NCBI RefSeq assembly: GCF_900184735.1
Contig: NZ_LT855386.1
Span: 394,988-458,987, forward strand
DNA length: 64,000 nt
From: Paucisalibacillus globulus
GTDB taxonomy: Bacteria; Bacillota; Bacilli; Bacillales; Amphibacillaceae
Direction of reading: 5' to 3'
Positions 8,913 to 58,320 of this stretch are shown piece by piece. The position numbers were made by a program, and so were the translations under genes. Position 1 is the stretch's first letter. Every line of letters starts with the position of its first letter. The notes under the pieces are model-generated. The model worked only from the letters and a program-made list of their open reading frames with translations, ran no database searches and had not been told where the DNA came from.

Positions 8913-8963
8913 AACAATAGGCAGTATTTAAGTGCTAGTTTCTTGCATTCTCTCATTCACTTT

Positions 8964-9449
8964 TGATAGAAACTGTGCGGCTAATAATTTATTATGGGAG
9001 CAACATACCCGCTACGGAAATACACTCCGCTTTCCGCGGGCGGCTGGTGAGCCTCCTCGTGCTATCGCACTGCGGGGTCTCACCGATGCCTATCCTCCCG
9101 CAGGACAAGGAACGCTACGAAAGGGATACATCGCACGCAGAAAAAGTGATTTTCTTTTTCAAGGAGTCTCCGTGTATTTTCTACGCTAGTGTTGAGTGAA
9201 TAAGAGCAATTGAACCACATAAAAGCAAAACATAATTCAATAACTAACAATAATTAGAAAACTAAACCAGCGCAGGCAGAATTCGGAGACTCCTGCGGGA
9301 ATAGCACGTGTCCGAAGACCCCGCAGAGGTGGTCTTTCCTCGAGGAGGCTGAGGCCGGGCCCGCGGAAAGCGGAGTATTCTGCCGGAGCGGTAACATACC
9401 ACTATCCCGACTTAATTATAGCAGTTAACAGTCTACCGCACTGTTTGTA
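8964..9449. repeat. Modular GC-rich intergenic repeat, copy A
   Basis: It begins with TGATAGAAACTGTGCGG and ends with the decayed inverse CCGCACTGTTTGTAT. Two hairpin modules are visible. Module 2 (9016-9181) has outer arms GGAAATACAC and GTGTATTTTC. Module 1 (about 9274-9384) has arms GGCAGAATTC and GTATTCTGCC. An AT-rich linker joins them. The orientation is opposite to copies B and D. Base composition is visibly richer in G+C than the surrounding genes. The short ORFs running through it are not shared between copies and have no proper start sites, so it is taken as non-coding. It fills the gap between convergent moaC and moaB. Confidence 0.85.
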
Positions 9450-9546
9450 TAAATTATGTAATTCACAATTATTTTAGAGCAACTAGTAGTAAATTAAAGA
9501 TATTCACATGGAATAATGAATGCCTCTAATCGTTAACACATCACAC

Positions 9547-47213: not shown

Positions 47214-47344
47214 TTCTTATCACCTCTATCTTAAGGATAAGTTACGAAGGTTAAAACTACGTCTTGAGTTAGTTTAAATTTTGTTTAAAAAAGGCTATTT
47301 TCCAAATGATTGTTATATTTCAGGATAGCACCTAACAAATAGTA

Positions 47345-47840
47345 TGTTAGAAACTGTGCGGTAACCACTGCTAATCTCAAAAAATAAATGGGTATAGTGG
47401 TATGATTCTGCTCCGGCAGAATACTCCGCTTTCCACGGGCACGGCCTCAGCCTCCTCGCGGAAAGTTCACCGCTGCGGGGTCTTCGGACACGTGCTATTC
47501 CCGTAGGACAAGGTAGGCTTCGGCAGCATAATCATCATCGCACGAAGAAAATTGCTCTTTATTTTCGAGGAGTCTCCGTATTCTGCCTGCGCTGGTTTAG
47601 TATTCTAATTATTGTTAGTTATTGATCATATTTTTGGATTTAAGTGGTTCTATTGCCCTTAATTACTTATTACTAGCGAAGGAAATACACGGAGACTCCT
47701 GCGGGAGGATAGGCATCGGTGAGACCCCGCAGTGCGATAGCACGAGGAGGCTCACCAGCCGCCCGCGGAAAGCGGAGTGTATTTCCGTAGCGAGTATGTT
47801 GCGCTAACCAAAATAATTATTTACCGCACAGTTTCTATCA
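47345..47840. repeat. Modular GC-rich intergenic repeat, copy B
   Basis: It runs from TTAGAAACTGTGCGG to the inverse CCGCACAGTTTCTATCA. Module 1 comes first (outer arms GGCAGAATAC ... GTATTCTGCC), then an AT-rich linker nearly identical to that of copy D, then module 2 (GGAAATACAC ... GTGTATTTCC). Module 1 holds the optional AGGCTTCGGCAGCATAATC segment; module 2 lacks the optional segment seen in A and D. It lies between the histidine kinase and the ABC genes. Confidence 0.87.
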
Positions 47841-47866
47841 AATGCAATTAAATGAACGAGAACAAA

Positions 47867-47914
47867 CTAAAAAAAGAAGCAGATAGAGGGCTTTATCCTC
47901 TTCTGCTTCTTTTA
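47867..47914 (-). terminator. Terminator of the two-component operon
   Basis: Minus-strand stem AAGAAGCAGA-AGAGG / CCTCT-A-TCTGCTTCTT followed by a T run. It ends the regulator-kinase transcript before copy B. Confidence 0.88.
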
Positions 47915-52045: not shown

Positions 52046-52088
52046 CTATATTACAAAGGCTCTCTTAATATATACAATTTGTCACTAT

Positions 52089-52328
52089 TGATAGAAACTG
52101 CGCGGCTAATAATCTAATTTGGGAGCAACATACCCGCTACGGAAATACACTCCGCTTTCCTCGAGGAGGCTGAGGCCAGGCCCATGGCAAGGTAGACACT
52201 GCGACGGTCTTTTCGAGCAGATGTCGCCCCTGTGCTGGCAGTAAAAGCGGAGTATTCTGCCGGAGCGGTAACATACCACTATCCCGACTTAATTATGGGA
52301 GTTAACAGTCTACCGCGCAGTTACTAAT
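52089..52328. repeat. Modular GC-rich repeat, copy C (short chimeric copy)
   Basis: It begins TGATAGAAACTGCGCGG and ends CCGCGCAGTTACTAATA. The left half matches the module-2 edge (CCGCTACGGAAATACACTCC); the right half matches the module-1 edge (GCGGAGTATTCTGCCGGAGCGG). The linker and one half of each module are missing, so it looks like a deletion between modules. It separates the 91-aa gene from its likely terminator. Confidence 0.83.
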
Positions 52329-52382
52329 ATACTATTTGTTAGAACAATACGAGATAAACAACAATTCTTTAGAAAATAGCTA

Positions 52383-52658
52383 TTACAATACATCATTAAT
52401 ATTTTGCTGGGCTTCTTGTACTTGTTGCCTTATATCGTGCAAGGATTCAAAAGCCTGCTGGAATTGTGAGTTCTCTGTAGCTTCTTTTCCAGCTTGATTT
52501 TGAACCGCTCGTAGTTCACTTTCAGCCTGATTTAGTGCATTCTCTGCTTGTTCGAGGGTTTGTAAATCTTGTCCACCTGCTTGAATCACAGCTTCCTGCG
52601 CTTCTTTTAACATTCTAGATGCCTGTTGCAATTTTTCATGTAAATTTAGATAAGCCAT
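52383..52658 (-). CDS. 91-aa helical, Gln/Glu-rich hypothetical protein
   Basis: An all-helical, Ala/Gln/Glu-rich protein with heptad-like spacing (LHEKLQQASRMLKEAQEAV ... LEQAENALNQAESELRAV ... QVQEAQQNINDVL), probably a coiled-coil bundle. ACGGAGG precedes the ATG. No membrane segment, no cysteine, no recognised family. Confidence 0.7.
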   Translation of the reverse strand: MAYLNLHEKLQQASRMLKEAQEAVIQAGGQDLQTLEQAENALNQAESELRAVQNQAGKEATENSQFQQAFESLHDIRQQVQEAQQNINDVL

Positions 52659-57546: not shown

Positions 57547-57672
57547 CCTTGCTACCTCTTCTCCCAGATTAAATCATTATTTAAATATAGCATTAGATTC
57601 TAGAAACAGGAAGAAGGAAATAACATTATGAAAACGTATGACTTCTCTATAAATATTTGTTTCTTACATAAT

Positions 57673-58320
57673 TGATAGAAACTGTGCGGTTACGACTGTC
57701 ATGAATGGGCGTGGTGGTAATATACCGCTCCGGCAGAATACTCCGCTTTCCACGGGCACGGCCTCAGCCTCCTCGAGGAAAGATCGCCTCTCTAGGGGTC
57801 TTCGGACACGTGCTATTCCCGCAGGACAATGGTTTTCGGTGGGGCGAGTAATCGCAGTCCCAAGGAAGGCTTCGGCAGCATAATCATCGCACGAAGAAAA
57901 TTGTTCTTTATTTTCGAGGAGTCTACGTATTCTGCCTGCGCTGGTTTAGTATTCTAATTATTGTTAGTTATTAATCATATTTTTGGATTTAAGTGGTTCT
58001 ATTGCCCTTAATCACTTATTACTAGCGAAGGAAATACACGGAGACTCCTTGAAAAAGAAAATCACTTTTTCTTCGTGCGATGTATCGCTTTCGTAGCGTT
58101 CCTTGTCCTGCGGGAGGATAGGCATCGGTGAGACCCCGCAAGAGCAAAATAGGGGTTCAAAGGCTAGGAACGCCTCATCCTGAGGCAACGCCTTTGTGAC
58201 CAACATCCTGTTGGCCCGTGGCTCACCAGTCGCCCCTTGCAGGCAGTAAAAGCGGAGTGTATTTCCGTAGCGGGTATGATGCTTCGTCCAAAATCCTTAG
58301 TTACCGCACGGTTTCAATCA
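57673..58320. repeat. Modular GC-rich intergenic repeat, copy D (longest)
   Basis: It runs from TGATAGAAACTGTGCGG to CCGCACGGTTTCAATCA. Both modules carry their optional segments: AGGCTTCGGCAGCATAATC in module 1, and the AAAGAAAATCACTTTTTC hairpin segment in module 2. An extra insert around 58150-58215 includes a CAACATCCTGTTG palindrome and AGGAACGCC/GGCAACGCC pieces. It separates the EamA gene from the DUF819 gene. Confidence 0.87.

Follow-up and report, generated by a model that had tools for sequence, protein, structure and literature searches.

Intergenic GC-rich repeats of Paucisalibacillus globulus are most probably non-autonomous transposable elements with IS1595-family ends

Results

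Four intergenic repeats with inner and outer ends

The window, which is the whole stretch of 64,000 nucleotides that was analysed, contains four copies (A to D) of a modular GC-rich repeat, all of which are intergenic (Table 1). The original prediction had delimited these copies, and our analysis confirmed them with small changes in coordinates. Copy A sits between genes that we take, from their translations, to be moaC-like and moaB-like; copy B between presumed ABC ATPase and histidine kinase genes; copy C between a gene for a presumed 3D-domain protein and a small gene; and copy D between presumably EamA-like and DUF819-like genes. Long open reading frames (ORFs) of the window flank all four copies and none of these overlaps a copy; copy A overlaps with two mechanically called ORFs, 78 and 85 codons long. 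The longest stop-free stretches span 77 (A), 75 (B), 60 (C), and 94 (D) codons, and at no more than 94 codons the copies are transposase-free. As had been proposed, the repeats are richer in G+C (A, 0.487; B, 0.474; C, 0.510; D, 0.486) than the window (0.361). An inner 17-mer that bounds the copies matches the window 7 times at up to 3 mismatches, compared with 0.11 matches expected from shuffling. Copies B and D are 96% identical over 175 nt, and the end stretches of A and C are 93 and 95% identical. Pairwise matches and module strands bear out the inverted orientation of A with respect to B and D; copy C has the same orientation as A.

Table 1. Coordinates of the repeats and of their parts in the window.
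Feature	Position	Strand	Remarks
Copy A, inner-repeat extent	8964-9452		right end with 3 mismatches
Copy A, whole element	8920..9489	.	left outer end GGCAGTATTT at 8920; right end (~9489) decayed, placed by eye
Copy A, inner inverted repeat, left	8964..8980	+	0 mismatches; 'terminus' of the original prediction
Copy A, module 1, partial (profile 24-119)	9010..9105	-	stem type GGAAATACAC/GTGTATTTCC; E 7.3e-28
Copy A, module 2, inverted	9269..9390	+	stem type GGCAGAATAC/GTATTCTGCC; E 6.7e-22, itself in profile
Copy A, inner inverted repeat, right	9436..9452	-	3 mismatches
Copy B, inner-repeat extent	47345-47840		
Copy B, whole element	47293..47868	.	GGCTATTTTCC...GAGAACAAACT; element-free site in G007 (L167 4520-4760)
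Copy B, target A-run, left	47287..47292	.	right A-run 47869-47875
Copy B, inner inverted repeat, left	47345..47361	+	1 mismatch
Copy B, module 1, partial	47410..47508	-	module profile E 2.1e-14
Copy B, module 2, complete	47674..47792	+	module profile E 2.3e-36, itself in profile
Copy B, inner inverted repeat, right	47824..47840	-	0 mismatches
Copy C, inner-repeat extent	52089-52329		right end with 4 mismatches; large internal deletion
Copy C, whole element, internally deleted	52058..52381	.	G007 without element beside the same small gene
Copy C, target duplication, left ATTACAAA	52050..52057	.	right copy ATTACAAT 52382-52389, 7/8
Copy C, inner inverted repeat, left	52089..52105	+	right one degenerate, ends 52329
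Copy D, inner-repeat extent	57673-58320		
Copy D, element	57640..58320	.	decayed left outer end (by eye) to right inner repeat
Copy D, inner inverted repeat, left	57673..57689	+	0 mismatches
Copy D, module 1, partial	57726..57826	-	module profile E 7.7e-14
Copy D, module 2, split by nested hairpin inserts	58023..58272	+	pieces 58023-58049, 58106-58140, 58220-58272
Copy D, Bacillaceae-1 motif (RF01690) in module 2	58148..58214	+	66.3 bits, gathering 35
Copy D, inner inverted repeat, right	58304..58320	-	2 mismatches

Comparison with a sister genome (G007) revealed sites without the element, with clear junctions at B and C. At site B, G007 reads GTTTAAAAAA-GAAGCAG, and the window reads GTTTAAAAAA-GGCTATTTTCC...GAGAACAAACT-AAAAAAAGAAGCAG. 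At site C, the window reads ATTACAAA-GGCTCTCTT...GAAAATAGCT-ATTACAAT and G007 reads CTTACAACACATC, with extra genes on the far side of the site. No element is present at site A in G010, G003, and G005, where the space between the genes is short; in G006, G009, and G001 this position is occupied by different sequence, without a blastn match to B or D. G007 itself is filled at site A with a copy of different mosaic structure and at site D with a much shorter copy. We tested 59 copies of the own genome against the G007 stretches, and 11 had syntenic flanks: the element is absent from 8 of these sites and present at 3 (A, D, and a copy designated e58). Two of the absences (e10 and e28) are less clean, with other sequence in between; overall, the comparisons indicate that the element was inserted as a unit. 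In the filled site A of G007 (L166, ~1885-1910), the inner repeat overlaps the stop codon of the presumed moaC-like gene (TTGATAG), and this overlap leaves the copy without a left outer arm.

The element-free sites rule out the inner 17-mer as the transposon terminus. The original prediction had treated the 17-mers as the ends of the element; they are inner repeats, and in B and C the true ends, which are GGCTGTTTTCTAAAAGATTGTTG-type sequences, lie 28–52 nt farther out. The flanks of the copies are alike beyond the 17-mer, one side reading ...AAGGCTGTTTTCTAAAAGATTGTTG... and the other (read inwards) AAGGCTGTTTTCGTACAGTTTGTTGCT. Within the window, B and C retain the left outer end, and those of A and D are decayed and could be read on the left side only, by eye. 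The limits of A derive from comparison of the family and from the filled site in G007, and comparison with the shorter copy at the same G007 site (L167) revealed that D has lost its right outer end. The best target duplication among the own copies is that of C in the window (7/8); the A-runs of B are compatible with one, and the flanks of A and D are unreadable. By eye, the left A-run of B is the T-tract behind a terminator-like hairpin of the minus-strand gene presumed to encode a histidine kinase.

The own genome (3.92 Mb in 23 contigs) contains 63 and 65 (128) matches to the inner 17-mer at up to 2 mismatches and none to the reversed control, and a blastn search with copy B returned 103 pieces. 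From this genome we extracted 64 end pairs, a set that does not cover every 17-mer match. Of these, 59 are at least 200 bp long, and the remaining 5 (123–127 bp) are mostly pairings within elements. Both outer ends were found in 13 of the 59 copies at a loose limit of 9/25 mismatches, some of them perhaps by chance, and no target duplication of at least 7/8 was seen by eye in those 13. The copies are old and mostly decayed at their ends.

Outer ends and target duplications in related genera

Of 31 genomes of the order (the own genome among them), 14 contain the outer 23-mer at up to 2 mismatches, and the reversed control gave 0 in each. A scan of named genomes found at least 120 loci carrying the outer end; the counts that follow refer to the 120 loci listed. 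We take the names on these loci to be those of Bacillales, save two records labelled Pseudomonas sp. ISL-84. These two records (L312 and L316) carry an element otherwise seen in Bacillales and are perhaps mislabelled or contaminated.

Among the matches listed, there are 123 left ends, of which 94 could be paired with a right end no more than 3 kb away and 29 could not. Direct repeats of 8 bp flank 53 of the 94 paired elements perfectly and 73 with at least 7/8 identity, again among the matches listed; a shuffled-pairing control gave means of 0.25 (maximum 2) and 2.6 (maximum 8), respectively. The perfect duplications of this set are 91.5% A+T. Most of the elements listed are short (88 of 94 at 850 bp or less; median 223), and 4 of the 6 that exceed 850 bp (L276, L360, L273, and L302) combine perfect duplications with genes. 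The 8-bp target duplication is thus evident from the named genomes, and within the window only from C (7/8).

Transposase-bearing partners

Autonomous elements with the same ends were found in relatives, including the same genus. One of these (L382, in G004 of the same genus) is 1,880 bp in length, has the ends GGCTGTTTTCTCAAAGATTGTTG / GGCTGTTTTCGTATAGATTGTTG and a perfect duplication ATAATTAA, and contains passengers together with a 342-codon ORF. This ORF matches PF12762 at 66.8 bits (cut-off 27) and PF12760 at 25.7 bits (cut-off 25.4), so that L382 is a partner with both the DDE_Tnp_IS1595 and the zinc-ribbon domain. A similar element (L385, in G041) has a duplication of 7/8 by eye and reaches the cut-off for PF12762, with PF12760 below it at 23.2; L384 (in G008, same genus) and L383 (in G038) are broken elements. 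Among the named genomes, Paenibacillus castaneae has a 1,588-bp element with a perfect duplication (L276; TTAATCAA), in which a stop-to-stop ORF of 367 codons matches PF12762 DDE_Tnp_IS1595 at 52.2 bits and PF12760 at 22, below cut-off; a 130-codon ORF is its passenger. The 1,604-bp element of P. mellifer (L360; TTTCAAAA) also has a perfect duplication and contains a 154-codon passenger and a 339-codon ORF, a putative transposase that resembles that of L276 in appearance. In P. tyrfis (L273) and Lysinibacillus xylanilyticus (L302), the transposases are broken and passengers are present.

The outer ends of the window family match the 23-nt ends of L382, L276, and L360, and these inverted ends are therefore common to the repeats and to autonomous IS1595-family elements. 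PF12762 occurs in 10 of 61 genomes, 8 of them above cut-off, and has 0 matches in the own genome; besides L382–L385, 6 further PF12762 loci have no pair of these outer ends. Two reports (PMC8101967, PMC12561309) describe AT-rich 8-bp duplications and both domains as features of IS1595. The GC-rich module is absent from the transposase-bearing loci tested (L382–L385, L276, L273, and L302), so that the repeats are not simple deletion derivatives of them. The passengers of L382, L276, L273, L302, and L360 vary and appear to include an HTH regulator with a membrane protein, a cupin-like protein, and a peptidase E-like protein.

Insertion targets

Among the matches listed, 12 of 73 insertions have a strict terminator-like hairpin directly next to the duplication, compared with 37 of 2920 AT-rich control positions (1.3%), a contrast that is inflated because these positions include coding DNA. 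With a strict hairpin at only 12 of 73 insertions, a terminator as the sole target was rejected, and terminators are a preference at most. By mechanical ORF calls, the neighboring ORFs are tandem for 36 of the 59 own copies, convergent for 15, and divergent for 3, with 5 undetermined; these are raw counts. Both the adjacency of hairpins and the setting of ORFs are compatible with elements inserting behind genes, or with the loss of harmful ones in front of them.

The GC-rich module as cargo

The ~120-nt module is carried in 47 of the 94 paired elements among the matches listed, which had been fetched by their ends alone. These elements amount to 30 kb; outside them, the module occurs in 32 places over the remaining 917 kb of their loci, and 5 of the 33 profile sequences used for this comparison derive from the named loci themselves. 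Counting the own genome, 49 of 61 genomes match copy B; beyond the closest species these are, among the matches listed, mostly the module alone, without inner ends. In relatives, we compared 28 module clusters with control sites. At up to 5 mismatches, an IS1595-type end lies on at least one side of 6 clusters and on both sides of 1 (control, 3 and 0 of 151); allowing a sixth mismatch raises these numbers to 9 and 3 (control, 11 and 0).

The wide occurrence of the module raises a serious possibility, one that we place somewhat short of probable, that it is a real and separately mobile or selected unit with several carriers, the IS1595-type MITE being just one of them. The distribution of copy B matches favors this model, as does the strong covariation described below. 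In addition, different ends (GRGGCTGGGACATAAC ... TATACTTTTGTCTCAACCTC) surround the module in 5 of 5 copies examined in G031 and in 2 of 7 in G005, one of the latter being a weak match with 3 and 4 mismatches. The presence of the module in a second carrier implies that it is older or wider than its IS1595-type carrier. However, neither second-carrier end was found in G024 (0/7) or G023 (0/1), and the ends of old carriers may simply have disappeared. The enrichment of the module within IS1595-ended elements over the rest of their loci also weighs against a separate unit, and no sharp insertion boundary or duplication of the module itself was seen inside a MITE. The second repeat is ~240 bp in length (L436–L440 in G031; L425 and L428 in G005).

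Structure and covariation of the module

As RNA, module 2 of copy B folds at -58.4 kcal/mol (z -5.9). Each strand of the module can fold (z -5.9 and -4.4), and copy B as single-stranded DNA yields a fold with z -8.7. We collected at least 129 unique full-length relatives of module 2: 81 from the own genome, 40 from relatives, and 8 from named genomes. Selection at <90% identity left 46 sequences, from which 31 were taken by hand and trimmed; together with the complete modules of A and B these form an alignment of 33 sequences (3 from the own genome, 23 from the same family, 2 from other families of the order, and 5 named). The 15 sequences omitted were mostly near-duplicates from the own genome.

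RNAalifold predicted 36 pairs in this alignment, and at least one double change occurs at 24 of them (shuffled, 10.0). The proportion of paired cells is 97.0% as compared with 86.3% after shuffling, the number of double-change cells 104 as compared with 21.6, and the covariation score 0.289 as compared with 0.100; 0 of 500 shuffles reached any of these measures. Sliding the structure by 1–3 columns reduced pairing to 48.3% or less, a comparison that favors the original structure because it was derived from the same alignment. The stem-loop pairing of the module has thus been kept by compensatory changes among related genera, which supports the proposal of a large structured repeat.

Compensatory changes might also arise through template-switch correction of imperfect palindromes at replication, without selection on structure. 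The outer stem does form a long palindrome, and G-U pairs make up only 16 of 1184 cells. This rarity of G-U pairs, which we had considered as a hint that pairing occurs in DNA and not in RNA, does not discriminate, because the Bacillaceae-1 RNA used as a yardstick is equally poor in them (7 of 492). Template switching is unlikely as the explanation, given that unpaired columns that never vary are kept and that the inner branches (helices 4–6) covary; perfecting of a palindrome would tend to erase such features.

The conserved structure with its compensatory changes, together with the Bacillaceae-1 RNA within copy D, could point to an alternative in which duplication, and not transposition, dispersed a large conserved RNA, either a non-coding RNA gene or a cis-regulatory RNA. 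As an account of the family this is very improbable: it is contradicted by the presence and absence of the repeats as units, the 8-bp duplications, the ends common with transposase elements, and the differences between copies at the same site in sister species. Moreover, RF01690 is the only Rfam family that reaches its gathering score inside the copies, and A, B, and C are without a match. An RNA of this kind can hold for the module alone. The original prediction gave no named family with this architecture; a nested piece of 67 nt in D does match one, RF01690. With just these 67 nt matching the covariance model, identity of the whole repeat with Bacillaceae-1 was rejected. In 18 of the named loci, Rfam revealed no further family inside elements at the gathering score, the sole match being a ribosomal leader.

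Hairpin inserts of ~55–60 nt were seen by eye at 58050-58105, 9106-9162, and 52170-52243, spliced into the module and recurrent between copies. Several of these inserts begin with CAAGG on one strand.

Discussion

The repeats are very probably copies of a non-autonomous transposable element (MITE) with IS1595-family ends. This identity rests on the ends, the target duplications, the presence and absence of copies, and the transposase-bearing partners. The MITE-like nature suggested in the original prediction is supported by the element-free sites, the 8-bp duplications, and the partners with the same outer ends. We assign the MITEs to the IS1595 type because these partners encode an IS1595 transposase. 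No such transposase was found in the own genome, and the partner is therefore inferred from relatives. Mobilization in trans by an IS1595 transposase would be the most likely route.

In the mechanism that we propose, an IS1595-type transposase supplied in trans would cut at the outer GGCT..TTTTC ends, and copies would be put into AT-rich sites, sometimes into the T-tract behind a gene's terminator hairpin. The copies contain up to two inverted ~120-nt GC-rich modules as cargo, and, as D illustrates, further small hairpins such as Bacillaceae-1 have been inserted into the modules. Within transcripts, the hairpins may function as, for instance, terminators or stability elements that take the place of the interrupted terminator. 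The module itself may serve in transcript termination or as an insulator. It is tempting to speculate, although we consider it rather doubtful, that a widespread nucleic-acid element, selected for its structure, travels in the form of this module within at least two families of transposon ends and is preferentially dropped behind genes as a new folded 3' end (a terminator, insulator, or stability hairpin), with Bacillaceae-1-like hairpins swapped in and out of its loops. If this were true, transposition would spread a functional structured element.

Like the present MITEs, IS1595 elements and their MITEs have ends beginning GGC and AT-rich 8-bp duplications; the IS1595 elements encode a transposase with DDE_Tnp_IS1595 and zinc-ribbon domains and contain passenger genes in longer copies. 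The present MITE differs from them in its conserved structured GC-rich module, which the tested transposase-bearing elements lack. An ISL3-family transposase, which we had guessed from the ends and duplication length, was set aside: ISL3 matches occur in 27 of 61 genomes and 0 in the own genome, and IS1595-type elements have the ends.

REP sequences and REPINs are GC-rich inverted palindromes between genes, and the paired inverted GC-rich hairpins of our repeats resemble the REPIN layout. Mobilization of the family as a REP/REPIN-type repeat by a RAYT (Y1) transposase is scarcely credible, even with two Y1_Tnp genes in the own genome, one of them presumably RAYT-like (L105, G000:C22:319645-319974): the inner repeat and the tested module motif are absent at up to 3 mismatches from the 3.3-kb stretches around both genes, a short GGAGTGACAGGCACC-type repeat of its own flanks the weaker-scoring Y1 gene (by eye), and 8-bp duplications with inverted ends fit a DDE transposase. 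The repeats thus do not flank a RAYT gene, and no Y1 gene lies beside the present ends. The flanking GGAGTGACAGGCACC-type repeats that were seen by eye at the Y1_Tnp gene of L105 are short and bear no relation to the GC-rich repeats. Passages of the report on GTAG/CGTC-tagged REP sequences, which were rejected as a match, mention Bacillus only for bcr1 (PMC3733652).

The bcr1–bcr3 repeats of the Bacillus cereus group are described as high-copy intergenic MITE-like sequences, often in UTRs (PMC3446304). In this description they resemble our repeats, and they differ in that bcr1 is 147–167 bp long according to a second report (PMC2267715) and is termed group-specific in a cited title. Bhal-1 of Bacillus halodurans, given as a 74-bp stem-loop repeat in the same report (PMC2267715), is by this description comparable in being a stem-loop repeat family of a Bacillus genome. 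Among the papers listed, titles and abstract openings contain no description of the present repeat and no IS1595-family MITE carrying a conserved structured GC-rich module.

For an extensive group of GC-rich repeats between the genes of Bacillaceae and their relatives, the MITE reading would provide a definite route of mobilization, and the ends, target duplications, and transposase-bearing partners are searchable features. Pairing is kept among many genera while the module rides on mobile elements, which makes the question of a selfish hairpin or a useful 3' end testable. At least some Bacillaceae-1 copies lie inside transposable elements, which calls for caution in regarding this RNA as a stand-alone gene. 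Bacillaceae-1 is, like our repeats, a hairpin repeat in the same genomes and is nested in D and 3 other own elements; it differs in that 7 of its 13 own-genome matches above cut-off lie outside inner-repeat pairs (6 lie inside, in 4 elements). It is present in 44 of 61 genomes and, with 67, 66, and 57 matches in the relatives G012, G043, and G045, behaves like a repeat family.
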